Assembly (NCBI RefSeq): GCF_023161965.1
Contig: NZ_JALNTY010000001.1
Coordinates: forward strand, 310,001-374,000
Direction of reading: 5' to 3'
DNA length: 64,000 nt
DNA from: Anaerosoma tenue
GTDB lineage: Bacteria > Actinomycetota > Coriobacteriia > Anaerosomatales > Anaerosomataceae
Shown here: one piece after another, positions 13,738 to 62,715 of the stretch
Layout of the letters: each line of letters begins with the position of its first letter
Position numbering within the stretch: the stretch's first letter is position 1
The notes under the pieces: model-generated
The model's input: only the letters and a program-made list of their open reading frames with translations
The model's database searches: none
What the model was told of the DNA's origin: nothing
Position numbers and translations under genes: made by a program

Positions 13738-13752
13738 CATCCCGCATCGCCC

Positions 13753-13780
13753 GAAGGCCCCGGATCCGTCCGGGGCCTTC
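13753..13780 (+). terminator. Stem-loop after rplS
   Basis: Perfect 12-bp stem (arms 13753-13764 and 13769-13780) with a TCCG tetraloop, 16 bases after the rplS stop. The following sequence is not T-rich, as is common for terminator-like hairpins in high-GC actinobacteria. It likely ends or stabilises the rplS transcript. Confidence 0.7.
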
Positions 13781-13793
13781 GTCGTGTCGGGGT

Positions 13794-22171: not shown

Positions 22172-23908
<1,737 letters not shown>

Positions 23909-57736: not shown

Positions 57737-58381
57737 ATGGAGCACGGCGAGGTAACGGCGATCACCTCGCGCCGTGGCTCAAAGCGGCGCGAGGTGCACG
57801 TGAGCGGCGATCAGTGGGCCATCATGCCCGCCGCAATCGTCAAGGCGCTCGGACTACAGGTGGGTGACACCATCGCCCTCGATGAGGTGCTCGTCCGCCG
57901 TCTCGAGATCGAGCCTCAGCATGCCCGTGAGCGCGCATTCCGGCTGCTGGCGTATCGAGAACGTAGCACTACGGAGATGGCTGACCGGTTGACGGACGAC
58001 GGGTATCTGCAGTCTATCGTCGCCGACACCGTCTCGTGGCTCACGGATACAGGCTTGCTCGATGATGAGCGCTTCGCTGAGCAGATGGCGCGCACCATGA
58101 TCATCCTACGGGGGTTCGGACGACAGCGCGCACTTCGTGAGCTGCGCCGATTCGGTATCGTCGACGACTGCGCAGCGCGCGCGCTCGATGCGGTAGCGCC
58201 TGCGGAGGGGGAGGACGAGCGTGCATTCGAGATGGCACGCCGTCTGTCCCGTCCCTCGGATTCTGTGGACCGGCTTGCCGCGCGTCTCGTTCGCCGAGGG
58301 TTCTCCACCTCGGATGCGCTCAAAGCCGCCAGGTCATGCGTGTCGCCCTCCGGGACCGCCGAACCGGAGGATGCCTGCTGA
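57737..58381 (+). CDS. recX: Regulatory protein RecX
   Basis: Modulator that binds RecA filaments. The 214 residues have a non-conserved N-terminal beta region (about 1-60) and three-helix repeats starting ARERAFRLLAYRERSTTEM, with LDDERFAEQ and the later RRGFSTSDAL. Weak ribosome binding at ATG 57737 suggests low translation relative to recA, with which it should be co-transcribed. Confidence 0.9.
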   Translation: MEHGEVTAITSRRGSKRREVHVSGDQWAIMPAAIVKALGLQVGDTIALDEVLVRRLEIEPQHARERAFRLLAYRERSTTEMADRLTDDGYLQSIVADTVSWLTDTGLLDDERFAEQMARTMIILRGFGRQRALRELRRFGIVDDCAARALDAVAPAEGEDERAFEMARRLSRPSDSVDRLAARLVRRGFSTSDALKAARSCVSPSGTAEPEDAC

Positions 58382-58715
58382 GCATCCCGTTATCCCTGCT
58401 CAGGCGGTGCGTCTCTCTTGACGTGACATAGCCCTCCCGAGTACGATTGCCACGGCAAATGCGATCGAGACGCTCCGATAGACGTCGGGCGTGTCGTGTG
58501 GTTCTTCAGTGAGATGAAGTCGGCACCGCCTCGAAAGGGGTCGGTGCACGTATCGTATCCATAGACGAACCGAACTCTATCGTATCTGCCGGGCGGTCGT
58601 GCCCGGCGCTCCGGTTCCAAGGGTAGGGGTATACCCTCCGGGCACCAGGTGCACCGTTCGTTCGCCAACAAGACGATGGACAACGCACCGATACCCGGAA
58701 GGGAGGGCACGCCCG
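58382..58715 (+). other. 334-base gap: rny promoter and predicted structured leader
   Basis: No credible gene is seen on either strand. It holds a promoter at 58418-58447 and, downstream, a series of predicted hairpins: 58470-58492 (8 bp with one bulge), 58523-58547 (outer 6 bp, GCACCG/CGGTGC), 58588-58607 (7 bp, GCCGGGC/GCCCGGC) and 58620-58637 (6 bp). A small 4-bp hairpin at 58642-58652 follows. I recognise no known riboswitch class. Confidence 0.6.
58418..58447 (+). promoter_or_regulatory. Candidate rny promoter
   Basis: TTGACG at 58418-58423 and TACGAT at 58442-58447 are separated by 18 bases. Transcription would start near 58454 and give a leader of about 262 bases, unusually long for this compact region. 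Confidence 0.55.
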
Positions 58716-60248
58716 ATGGGACCCGTCATCTATGCACTTCTCGGACTCGTCATCGGCGTCGTCCTCGGCATAGTCATCAACCGCTTCATCATCGCCGGCA
58801 AGACCACCCGCGCTCGCGAAGCCGCGGAACGGCTCCTCGCCGATGCAGAGAAGCAGGCCGAGACGACCCGCAAGGAGATGCTCCTCGAGGCGAAGGATGA
58901 GATCCTCCGCCTCAAAGGCCAGGCAGAAGAAGAGGCCAAGGAGCGGCGCAAGGAGCTCGGCGCGCTCGAGAACAGACTCCTACAGCGCGAGGAGTCCCTC
59001 GACCGACGCACCGACTCGCTCGACAAGCGTGAACACCAGATGTCGAGCCAGGCGGGACAGATCATCAAGAGGGAGAAGGAGCTCGAAGACGCCATCGCCG
59101 ATGAGAAGGCGCGGCTCGAGTCGCTCGCTGGAATGACGACAGAGGAAGCCAAGTCGGTGCTCCTTGAGCGCGTCAGGCAGGACGTGTCGCATGATTCGGC
59201 CATGATCGTCCGCGAGGCCGAACAGCGCGCCCGTGAGGAAGCCGACCGCAAGGCCCGCAACATCATCGGGATCGCTATCGGTCGTGTCGCCGCCGATCAC
59301 ACCGCCGAGTCGACCGTCTCGGTCGTCCACATCCCGTCGGACGACCTCAAAGGCCGCATCATCGGTCGCGAGGGTCGCAACATCCGCGCGTTCGAACAGC
59401 TCACCGGGATCAACCTCATCATCGACGACACCCCTGAGGCGGTCATCCTCTCGAGCTTCGATCCTGTGCGGCGCGAGGTAGGACGCATCACGCTGGAGAA
59501 CCTCATCGCCGACGGCCGGATCCACCCGGCGCGGATCGAAGAGATGTTCAAGAAGGCAGAGCAGCTCGTGGACCAGCAGGTGTTCGAGGCTGGAGAGCAG
59601 GCGGTGTTCGACACCGGCGTGCACAACCTCCACCACGACATCGTGCGCACCCTCGGCCGGCTCCGCTATCGCACGAGCTACGGCCAGAACGTCCTCAACC
59701 ATTCGCTCGAGGTCGCATACCTGTCAGGCGTCATGGCGGCTGAACTCGGACTCGATCCCGCGCTCGCAAAGCGCGCCGGTCTTCTCCATGACCTTGGCAA
59801 GGCCATCGACCACGAGATCGAGGGCCCGCACGCCGTCATCGGCGCCGACCTCGCCCGTAGGCTTGGCGAGAACAAAGAGGTAGTCCACTGTATCGAGGCT
59901 CACCACGGGGACGTCGAACCCCAGACCGTGGAAGCCGTCATCGTTCAGGCGGCGGACGCCATTTCCGCCGCCCGCCCCGGCGCTCGGCGCGAGACGCTCG
60001 AGAGCTACATCAAGCGTCTCGAGAAGCTGGAGTCGCTCGCCGAGTCCCACAAGGGCGTGGAGAAGTCCTACGCCATGCAGGCTGGTCGCGAGATCCGTGT
60101 CATGGTCAAGCCCGAGGATGTATCCGATGCCGACTCCACGCTCATGGCGCGCGACATCGCCAAGCAGATCGAGGAGGAGTTGCAGTACCCGGGCCAGATC
60201 AAGGTCATGGTCATCCGTGAAAGCCGGGCAGTGGAATACGCCAAGTGA
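58716..60248 (+). CDS. rny: Ribonuclease Y
   Basis: Membrane-anchored endoribonuclease that initiates mRNA decay. The 510 residues have an N-terminal membrane anchor (about 2-24), a long coiled coil (about 30-200), a KH domain ([10 protein letters not shown], about 213-222) and an HD domain with H358 and D359 in [10 protein letters not shown] 58716 follows AAGGGAGGG. Its neighbours differ from Firmicutes: instead of ymdB a GHKL ATPase gene follows. The strong palindrome at 60287-60314 may end its transcript. Confidence 0.96.
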
Positions 60249-60286: not shown

Positions 60287-60314
60287 GTGAAGGGACCGCA
60301 TGCGGTCCCTTCAC
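60287..60314 (+). terminator. Perfect 28-base palindrome after rny
   Basis: Both 14-base halves match exactly, so RNA could form about 12 bp around a four-base loop. It lies 38 bases after the rny stop and is followed by TCTTGAG. A smaller 6-bp hairpin (60256-60261 with 60275-60280) precedes it. It may be a terminator or, being perfectly symmetrical, a binding site for a dimeric regulator. Confidence 0.55.
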
Positions 60315-60335: not shown

Positions 60336-60368
60336 GTGGCACCCTTGGTGAGCGATGAGCGAACATGA
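60336..60368 (+). other. Ten-codon upstream ORF overlapping the ATPase start
   Basis: GTG 60336 with the strong site GAAGGAAGG at 60319-60327 opens a ten-codon frame (MAPLVSDERT) that stops at 60366-60368, 13 bases into the ATPase gene. The ATPase ATG at 60355 itself has only a weak site (GGTGAG). This could couple translation of the ATPase to the upstream ORF. It is inferred from sequence alone. Confidence 0.35.
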
Positions 60369-61431
60369 CCCTCTGATAGATTTCGTCACTAACGTGTCGG
60401 GCGATGGCTACCTCAAGGTCGAGGAGAGCCTCGGTGACGGCTACGTTCGCCTCCGGGTACCCGAGGCTGAACGGCGTCAAGCGAAGCACGATATCCGAAG
60501 CGTAGAGGACATCGTCGTCGAGCTTCTCCGAAACGCACGCGATGCCCACGCCCAGCGGATATTCGTCGCCACCACACGAGAAGGCTCCACCCGCACCCTG
60601 ACGATGATCGATGATGGTGTGGGTATCCCGCCAGCGCTGCAGGACACCGTCTTCGAACCGCGGGTCACGTCCAAGCTGGAGACCATGGTGATGGACCGAT
60701 GGGGAGTCCACGGGCGCGGAATGGCGCTCTACTCCGTCCGATCCAACGTAGTGAGTGCCCGGGTCGCATGCTCGTCGCCGCACAAGGGCGCGTCCATCTC
60801 CGTCATCACCGATTCCGAGCGGCTCACCGAGCGCGCCGATCAGTCCACATGGCCCACGGTCGAGCCCGACGAATCCGGGAGACTCCATGTTGGGCGCGGG
60901 CCGCACAACATCATCAGGCGGCTCGTGGAGTTCGCGTGCGAGCACCCCGAACTCGAGATCTACCTCGGCACTCCCACAGAGATCCTGGCCACCCTGCACT
61001 CCCTTGGGCGGATGCAACTGGACATAGCGGACCTGATGTTCTGCGAGGACCTGGAGCGCCTGGTGGTCTGGCAGCGCCCCGCGGCGTGTTCCGATGCAGC
61101 GGAGCTCACCGCCATCGCGGACACGATCGGGCTGACGGTATCCGAGCGGACGGCGCACCGTGTCCTGGCAGGGGAACTCGCCCCGCTCGAGCCGATACTT
61201 GCGACGCTCGCGGTGGCCGACGAGCCCGAGAAGTCCTCTGCGCCGGACATCTACCGTGACCGCCGCTCGCTCCGCCTTCACCACGATGACCTCGTCGCAT
61301 TCCGTGCGGAGCTCACCCGCGCCTTCGACGTGATCGCCGAGCGTTACTACGTCAGCCTGAGAGGCGAACCGCGCATCACCGTGGGACGCGACTCCGTGAA
61401 CGTGCGGTTTCCGATAGAGAAAGAAGACTGA
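60355..61431 (+). CDS. Stand-alone GHKL ATPase with MutL-like motifs
   Basis: A 358-residue protein with one recognisable domain, a GHKL (Bergerat-fold) ATPase at about 40-165. The N-box ELLRNARDA has E56, N60 and D63; G1 is DDGVGIP at 86-92; G2 is GVHGRGMAL at 117-125. EPRVTSK at 101-107 resembles the TSK motif of MutL more than a histidine kinase. There is no HisKA, sensor or membrane segment. Residues 170-358 are helical with no match I recognise. ATG 60355 is forced by an in-frame stop at 60349. It lies between rny and spoVS; function unknown. Confidence 0.85.
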   Translation: MSEHDPLIDFVTNVSGDGYLKVEESLGDGYVRLRVPEAERRQAKHDIRSVEDIVVELLRNARDAHAQRIFVATTREGSTRTLTMIDDGVGIPPALQDTVFEPRVTSKLETMVMDRWGVHGRGMALYSVRSNVVSARVACSSPHKGASISVITDSERLTERADQSTWPTVEPDESGRLHVGRGPHNIIRRLVEFACEHPELEIYLGTPTEILATLHSLGRMQLDIADLMFCEDLERLVVWQRPAACSDAAELTAIADTIGLTVSERTAHRVLAGELAPLEPILATLAVADEPEKSSAPDIYRDRRSLRLHHDDLVAFRAELTRAFDVIAERYYVSLRGEPRITVGRDSVNVRFPIEKED

Positions 61432-61488
61432 CGGTCCGGGCTCCCTGGGGATGACACCACGGGGATTCTTCCGGCTACGCCTATGCGG

Positions 61489-61494
61489 TATACT
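61489..61494 (+). promoter_or_regulatory. Candidate -10 box for spoVS
   Basis: TATACT in the 168-base gap between the ATPase and spoVS genes, about 105 bases before the spoVS start. The -35 position (TTCTTC) is poor. The leader contains a GC-rich stretch (CCCGCGGCGGCCGCG) that can fold. Nothing else was recognised in the gap. Confidence 0.4.
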
Positions 61495-61599
61495 CCAGTC
61501 ACACACGGCCCGCGGCGGCCGCGCAGCCGAATCAGACCATAAGACGCACCAGTGACCACACAAGCGATCGTAGACTCTATCCGCAGCACGGGAGGCGCC

Positions 61600-61875
61600 G
61601 TGGAGGTTCTCAAGGTATCCACCAAGTCGAGTCCCAACTCTGTTGCCGGCGCGCTCGCCGGCGTTATCCGCGAGCAGGGTTCAGTGGAGATCCAGACCGT
61701 GGGGGCCGGCGCGCTCAATCAGGCCGTCAAGGCCATAGCGATCGCCCGGGGCTTCGTGGCTCCAATGGGGCTCGATCTGATCTGCACACCAGCCTTCGCC
61801 GATATCGAGATCAACGGCGAAGAGCGTACCGCTATCCGCCTCCTTGTGGAGCCCCGGCAGCCCCACCATCTGTAG
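61600..61875 (+). CDS. spoVS: Stage V sporulation protein S
   Basis: Small Alba-like protein that affects sporulation and cell division in Bacillus and occurs also in non-sporulating lineages. The 91 residues match SpoVS from the first residue: EVLKVSTKSSPNSVAGALAG, then GAGALNQAVKAIAIARGFVAP and the C-terminal ERTAIRLLVEPR. GTG 61600 is chosen since GGGAGG precedes it and the family starts here; an in-frame GTG at 61552 lacks a ribosome binding site. It sits near the WhiG-like sigma factor only in the broad sense (40 kb away). Confidence 0.93.
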   Translation: MEVLKVSTKSSPNSVAGALAGVIREQGSVEIQTVGAGALNQAVKAIAIARGFVAPMGLDLICTPAFADIEINGEERTAIRLLVEPRQPHHL

Positions 61876-61881
61876 GACCGT

Positions 61882-62715
61882 ATGCCCAAGCCGGATCTCC
61901 ACCTCCACTCGACCTTCTCCGACGGACTGCTCGCGCCCGAGGAGATCGTTGCGCTGGCGATTCAAGCCCATCTGCCGGCGATCGCCATCACCGACCACGA
62001 CTGCATCGACGGCGTCGAACCTGCGCAGTCCGCTGCGGCCGGCACGGGTCTGCTGGTCATACCAGCGGTAGAGCTGTCGGCTACCCACGGCGGCCGCTCG
62101 CTGCACATACTCGGCTACCACATCGACATCACGTCAAAGCGGCTCCGTGCACGGCTGGCAGACCTCCGTTCGGCCAGACTTGAGCGTGCTCGCAGTATCG
62201 TCGACGCCCTTCGTGCCGACGGCTACGAACTCGATCCCGACGACATATTGCGGCCTTCCAGCGAAGGCGCGGTCGGCAGGGCGCACATCGCCCGACGGCT
62301 CGTCGAACAAGGTGTCGCCCGCGACATGGACGACGCCTTCCGCCGTTTTCTCGCCGACGATGCGCCGTACTACGTGCCCAAGCCGTCCACTCCTGCGGAG
62401 GCTGCCATCTCCTGGGTGATCGAGTCGGGAGGCGTTCCCGTCCTGGCGCACCCGGGACTCAGCCGGGTGGACGACCTCATCCCCGCACTGGTAGACCACG
62501 GACTCGCGGGACTGGAGGCGTACCACGCGTCCCACGATCCCGGCACGGCGACACGCTACGTTGAGATGGCCGAGCGGTACGGCCTCATCGTCACCGGCGG
62601 CTCCGACTTCCACGGATCCGAGCGCGAGGGTGGGCCCATCGGCTCCTCGGGCGCTCCGGATGATGCGATCCGCCGTCTCGAGGCGGCCAGCATCCGGCGG
62701 GAGGGGTCGCGATGA
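61882..62715 (+). CDS. PHP-domain phosphoesterase (RNase AM / TrpH type)
   Basis: Metal-dependent phosphoesterase of 277 residues. The PHP ligands are visible: H7, H9 and D14 (DLHLHSTFSD), D38-H39 (ITDHD), E64, H75, H135, H190 in LAHPG, and D242 and H244 in GGSDFHG. The inserted segment 90-190 with GRAHIARRLVEQGVA is typical of the YciV/TrpH group, whose members act as 5'-3' exoribonuclease on short RNAs and nucleoside 3',5'-bisphosphate phosphatase. ATG 61882 lies six bases after spoVS, and the miaB ATG overlaps its stop. Confidence 0.9.
   Translation: MPKPDLHLHSTFSDGLLAPEEIVALAIQAHLPAIAITDHDCIDGVEPAQSAAAGTGLLVIPAVELSATHGGRSLHILGYHIDITSKRLRARLADLRSARLERARSIVDALRADGYELDPDDILRPSSEGAVGRAHIARRLVEQGVARDMDDAFRRFLADDAPYYVPKPSTPAEAAISWVIESGGVPVLAHPGLSRVDDLIPALVDHGLAGLEAYHASHDPGTATRYVEMAERYGLIVTGGSDFHGSEREGGPIGSSGAPDDAIRRLEAASIRREGSR

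Follow-up and report, generated by a model that had tools for sequence, protein, structure and literature searches.

In many bacteria mRNA decay is started by RNase Y, and to our knowledge control of the amount of this enzyme is known only from Bacillus subtilis. Here, we consider a stretch of 64,000 nucleotides from Anaerosoma tenue (the window), in which the RNase Y gene, rny, is preceded by a long leader, and ask what this leader does. We read it as a cis-acting regulatory RNA of rny that probably works as a transcription attenuator, a reading that joins a conserved structure found at rny to a predicted termination step.

The rny locus and its promoter

The identity of rny (58716-60248, forward strand, 510 aa) is firm, with matches to TIGR03319 and PF12072 and a TIGR03319 score of 743 bits against a cut-off of 454. 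Genes are ordered recA-recX-rny, the recX stop codon ending at 58381 and the rny ATG standing at 58716, which leaves a gap of 334 nt. The same gap spans about 290-410 nt in most relatives compared and 763 nt in one (L020); the upstream frame used to measure it is doubtful in a few others. Ahead of the ATG lies the ribosome-binding site GGAAGGGAGGG (58697-58707). An alternative upstream start, GTG at 58599 in frame with rny, was rejected because this ribosome-binding site is strong and because many relatives' frames stop short.

On the other side of the gene, a perfect 12-bp hairpin (60287-60314) with only 3 T in the next 8 positions is likely a terminator whose U tail is weak; it resembles others at 13752-13781 and 23101-23131. 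The interval from rny to miaB (60355-62715) encodes a HATPase-domain protein, SpoVS (PF04232) and a PHP-domain protein, and is possibly an RNA-decay neighbourhood. Elsewhere in the genome, an RNase E/G family protein is encoded (PF10150, 331.6 bits; L229, G000:C1:123157-123960), so that RNase Y is not the sole candidate decay endonuclease.

A reading of the sequence alone had placed a sigma-70-like promoter at 58418-58447 and, from it, a 5' UTR of about 260 bases. Re-analysis returned the same forward-strand site, TTGACG-18-TACGAT, as the sole promoter-like site between 57800 and 59200 (0.2 expected); counting 7 nt from the -10 box predicts a start at 58454 and a leader of 262 nt. For comparison, rny upstream regions were taken from 41 genomes, and the conserved leader element described below was delimited in 39 of them, the other two being cut by a contig end (L033) or divergent (L042). 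The promoter box pair matches at 9/12 positions in 37 of the 39 elements, the window's own included, with a spacing of 17-18 in all 39, while random control anchors downstream reached a score of 9 in 0.13% of 780 trials. Moreover, the distance from the -10 box to the first G of the closing stem, P1, is 6-7 nt in every one of the 39 elements, and because this spacing is constant we place the predicted transcription start at the first base of P1. A second promoter closer to rny was rejected, since a site of 9/12 between the terminator-like hairpin T and the rny ATG occurs in one of the 39 leaders.

A conserved three-way junction ahead of rny

The RNA from 58448 to 58730 folds at -132.8 kcal/mol, compared with -109.6 +/- 5.5 kcal/mol for 200 shuffles that preserve dinucleotides, none of which reaches so low an energy (z -4.23). 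The long structured leader that had been proposed for rny is thus borne out by its folding energy, and it is conserved in relatives (Coriobacteriia, Actinomycetota). All of its parts lie on the forward strand. The 5' strand of P1, GGCAAAUGCGAU (58454-58465), starts at the predicted transcription start and pairs with the 3' strand AUCGUAUCUGCC (58579-58590); more generally, a 5' end of the form GGCAnAUGUGAU pairs with an AUCRCAnnUGCC-like strand, which in the window lies about 115 nt downstream. Enclosed by P1 are the hairpin P2 (58466-58496), whose length varies among relatives, a U-rich joining segment 3' of it (UUUGUGU), and the long arm P3, with its base formed by UGGUUC (58499-58504) and GAACCG (58567-58572) and its tip by the apical hairpin P3b (58521-58550). 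Directly after comes T (58588-58607), a terminator-like hairpin, GCCGGGC-GGUCGU-GCCCGGC, whose U tail is weak in A. tenue and whose stem has at least 5 pairs in 38 of the 39 elements. The GCC that ends P1 doubles as the first part of T.

Five hairpins had been listed for this leader before relatives were compared. Three belong to the conserved structure, that at 58470-58492 sitting inside P2, that at 58523-58547 forming the tip of P3 and that at 58588-58607 being T itself. The other two (58620-58637 and 58642-58652) fall in a stretch with no conservation even in the same-genus leaders L004 and L005, and that list included neither the base of P3 nor P1, a stem formed over a long distance.

Compensatory changes support the fold. 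In an alignment of 42 sequences, 93.2% of cells are paired, and slid controls reach 28.9-45.0%; both sides have changed at 33 of 43 pairs (21.9 when shuffled), in 247 cells (65.9 shuffled, 34-57 in slid controls). Covariation among relatives was the check that the sequence-only reading had set for its leader, and at this strength the leader claim withstands it. By part, two-sided changes occur in 8/8 pairs of P2 (helices 3 and 4), in 7/7 pairs of the P3 base (helix 5) and in 7/7 pairs of P3b (helix 7), and these parts are also present in the window's own fold; the window's own row aligns poorly in the P3 arm. This alignment covers 42 of 66 loci, omitting L003, L035 and loci without a good match to the covariance model R1, and, being fitted to a covariance model, it leans toward structure by construction.

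Alignments made on sequence alone agree with the model-fitted result. For P1, 38 of the 39 elements (alignment A1, omitting the near-duplicate L003) give 86.8% paired cells versus 25.2-41.4% in slid controls, and 16 two-sided cells versus 5.0. Within the order, the outermost P1 pairs, GGC/GCC, are nearly invariant and yield no covariation there. Direct reading shows P1 compensation as well, for example GGCAUCGUGAU/AUCAUGAUGCC in L037 and GGCAAAUACGAU/AUCGUACUUGCC in L004 against the window's own two strands. For P1, P2 and T, 24 leaders from Coriobacteriales (A7) give 89.9% versus 27.5-43.0%, and 43 two-sided cells versus 13.2; these counts are biased toward structure, because the leaders (20 from a set of 40 further class leaders, plus four named loci) were picked by eye for a visible P1 and T. 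Two of that set of 40, L199 and L200, are from the window's own order.

RNAalifold, applied first to a global alignment of poor quality, showed T alone, since P2 and P3 differ in length among relatives; covariance models resolved the fold. R1, built from six sequences, found most elements at their expected sites. R2, with alignment A6, comprises 31 of the 42 rows, the 11 omitted rows, the window's own among them, mostly having a visibly misaligned P3; it reproduces the covariation result. The window was absent from both training sets, yet both models found it, with 25.4 bits (R1) and with 53 bits and an E-value of 5e-10 (R2).

The stretch between T and the rny start (58608-58715), which carries the ribosome-binding site, is poorly conserved. 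Here translation might be controlled through a CU-rich stretch downstream of T that masks the Shine-Dalgarno sequence: pairing of the ribosome-binding site with CCCUCC (58634-58639) is possible, as are similar pairs in some relatives. Over 39 leaders, Shine-Dalgarno openness is about that of shuffles (mean 0.245 versus 0.289), and the window's site is at least as open as that of 29 of 30 shuffles. With no general masking effect across the 39 leaders, we rejected this reading as highly improbable. A leader peptide was also rejected: the AUG-UGA present in P1 of many relatives is not kept, reading AUACGA in L004 and L005 and AUCAGUGA in L030 (by eye).

An element of rny leaders in the Coriobacteriia

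Across 296 Coriobacteriia genomes, R2 matches 60 of the 69 from the window's order, Anaerosomatales. In 58 genomes rny follows the match on the same strand after 56-208 nt; in the remaining two (G108, G128) the match lies on a contig other than that of rny, consistent with contig breaks, and we take all 60 to belong to rny leaders, those two by inference. The unmatched genomes include two whose leaders a more sensitive search did match (G012 and G040; L012 and L030), one with rny cut at a contig end (G146) and two with neither an R2 nor an rny match (G121, G130). Four others (G030, G079, G089, G143) may lack the element, and at three of their loci (L042, L199, L200) the more sensitive search likewise gave no match. 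In the window's own genome the rny site alone is convincing (the next match, 56 nt in length, has E 0.016), and an extra antisense match in G022 overlaps the first and represents the same site. Beyond the order, R2 gave nine weak matches within the class, two of which were checked and neither of which lies at rny, and weak matches in ten other genomes of the phylum, one of each being checked, with no rny within about 2 kb; such matches, weak and, where checked, away from rny, are treated as chance.

Many leaders of family f19, which includes Eggerthellaceae, carry a shorter version, in which a -10 box TATCAT is followed by P1 (GCUUGAGUGA/UCGCUCAUGC), P2, a U-rich joint (UUUUAUAUAG, the Coriobacteriales counterpart of UUUGUGU) and then an intrinsic terminator, AUGCC..GGCAUUUUUU, which begins with the bases that close P1. 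A third model, R3, built from 24 leaders, matched 64 of the 296 class genomes, 63 of them f19; these 63 include most A7 leaders. They represent 63 of the 76 f19 genomes with rny, and all lie 32-91 nt upstream of the gene (36-91 nt for 45 placed by coordinates, 32-86 nt for 18 placed by tblastn). The single match outside f19 (G201, E 0.006) is away from rny, and G139 has an additional antisense match that overlaps its other one. R2 finds intermediate-form leaders in the right place with weak scores (E 0.011 in L189, 0.038 in L077 and 0.082 in L076). Homology of the Anaerosomatales and Coriobacteriales forms is, from these sequence comparisons, likely, short of proof.

Two further observations concern leaders of the class. 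Five leaders of f22 (L184, L187, L188, L191 and L192; Collinsella-like, by their likeness to L082) follow a similar plan, with GUCAUUUGU near the start and CAAAUGUC later, and then a strict terminator-like hairpin in three of the five. Additionally, in some Coriobacteriales (L079, L093, L190 and L193) a CC strand further downstream could take up the GG strand of P2 across the U-rich joint, which may represent a second alternative fold.

This distribution bears on whether the element is an independent small RNA, started and terminated by signals of its own, whose place before rny is a coincidence, rny being read by leakage. Its own promoter, compact fold and terminator-like 3' end would suit such an RNA. 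We judge it improbable, given that rny is adjacent in 60/60 and 63/63 genuine matches (two by inference), that the 32-91 nt gap in f19 leaves scant room for a second promoter and that none as good is conserved between element and gene in the order.

The same searches, with R2 and R3 over the 296 class genomes, convincingly found the element at no gene except rny, which also weighs against a metabolite riboswitch. In that variant of attenuation the junction would bind a small molecule, perhaps a nucleotide decay product, and P1 would relay binding to T; the aptamer-like junction and the closing stem that overlaps a terminator fit it, as does the PHP-family protein encoded three genes downstream, whose closest resemblance is to 3',5'-nucleoside bisphosphate phosphatase and RNase RNM, at scores below both curated cut-offs. 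Typical aptamer cores have highly conserved unpaired positions, unlike the rny leader, where few are so conserved (A10, A163 and U164 of A6 at 84-90%, most others below 80%). We consider a riboswitch quite unlikely.

Proposed attenuation and the control of RNase Y

What favours attenuation is the overlap of the 3' strand of P1 with T, through GCC in the window and AUG(C) in most Coriobacteriales leaders shown. A strand of the conserved structure therein overlaps a terminator-like hairpin ahead of the start codon, an arrangement expected of a transcription attenuator. Where the shared strand has changed in L218, the changes are followed on both sides, with UUGAGUUAUC/GAUAGCUCAA paired and AGUUGGC..GCCAACUUUUUU forming the hairpin; in L084, outer P1 is GGAC with GUCC. 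A strict terminator-like site lies in the last 230 nt of 34 of 41 f19 leaders versus 16% in shuffles of all 58 leaders, 28 of the 34 directly after P1 and six elsewhere (by reading); L164, L166 and L168 were missed by the strict search because of one stem mismatch. A U-rich tail, a true U-tract, follows T in many f19 leaders and is weak in the window's order (mean 3.3 T in 8, at least 4 in 18 of 39, 2 in the window). This weakness is not decisive against termination, because for most of the window's other strong hairpins, a group of which many lie within genes, the count is likewise no higher than 3 T in 8.

The inner part of P1 can stay paired while T forms in full, and the mutually exclusive pairs are the outer 2-4 alone. 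Blocking the 5' strand of P1 costs a mean of 4.7 kcal/mol in the order, hardly above the 3.6 kcal/mol of shuffled strands, so that the energies there are close to balance and a switch does not follow from calculation alone; the value for Coriobacteriales is larger, 8.0 kcal/mol, given here without a shuffled control. P1 can nevertheless delay T, because it is complete before T.

The proposed attenuation would run as follows. Transcription would start at the first nucleotide of P1, and as it emerges the RNA would fold into a three-way junction at which P1, P2 and the P3 arm meet. T begins with the nucleotides that end P1 (UGCC; AUGC in Coriobacteriales). With outer P1 paired, T would form without its lowest pairs and polymerase would presumably read into rny; with outer P1 open, full T would form and a short leader RNA would be released. 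The likeliest purpose would be to match the amount of RNase Y to need, with the fold decided by the enzyme itself or by an RNA-decay product.

A different possibility is post-transcriptional autoregulation without termination, in which the 5'-paired leader would shield the mRNA from 5'-end-dependent decay, RNase Y would cut the joining regions and T would act as a barrier or processing stem. The predicted start at the first base of P1 accords with this, and according to PMC10303841, B. subtilis RNase Y cuts its own mRNA in the 5' UTR and in the open frame and prefers single-stranded AU-rich RNA, which the U-rich joint after P2 would suit. It leaves unexplained the textbook intrinsic terminator joined to P1 in many Eggerthellaceae-type leaders, and we regard it as unlikely.

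Compared with known systems, the attenuator reading has partial parallels. Rfam 15, rne5 included, gave no match at gathering score in the window or in 20 relatives' loci, in keeping with the earlier remark that the leader holds no known riboswitch; at relaxed thresholds, the window leader gave only far sub-threshold matches, and L019 and L172 gave none. The rne 5' UTR of E. coli constitutes the Rfam family rne5 (RF00040). Like the rny leader, it is a long structured leader of a main decay endonuclease gene with possible autoregulation; unlike it, it has an Rfam family. Transcription attenuation is favoured over an rne-type mechanism, the model from which the sequence-only reading had suggested that RNase Y could autoregulate, because the closing stem overlaps the terminator-like hairpin. 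In ON-type transcription riboswitches such as the pbuE adenine riboswitch, the 3' strand of P1 overlaps the 5' strand of the terminator, as in the rny leader, whereas fold and gene differ and the overlap here is short.

The nearest precedent by gene is B. subtilis rny, whose product controls its own mRNA, partly via the 5' UTR (PMC10303841). The two share the gene and a leader that, in B. subtilis, matters for expression, with documented autoregulation. They differ in that the B. subtilis UTR is 160 nt long, with cleavage falling mostly within an AU-rich 5' segment that has a single stem-loop, and that the available parts of that article describe no three-way junction or terminator; its Discussion adds that the rne UTR stem-loop is bound without being cleaved. 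No description of the present element was found in the literature searched, and a word search of PMC11109978 and PMC8632094 gave no hit for rny, RNase Y or the genus names. As far as the Rfam and literature searches reach, the family and its gene association are new, while a structured attenuator-like leader is of a known kind.

By analogy with B. subtilis, the sole precedent for it, feedback control by RNase Y is a plausible, if tentative, purpose of the leader. More speculatively, one ancestral regulatory RNA of the Coriobacteriia might sense RNA-decay capacity, through RNase Y or a product of decay, in the nascent leader and set RNase Y through competition between the 5' end and the terminator, the start of the RNA serving both as antiterminator and as a 5'-end lock against decay. 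An RNA element confined to rny in gut (Eggerthellaceae-type) and environmental bacteria would add a second way of setting RNase Y, one that differs in structure, and it would provide a ready-made test system as well as a new RNA family for annotation.
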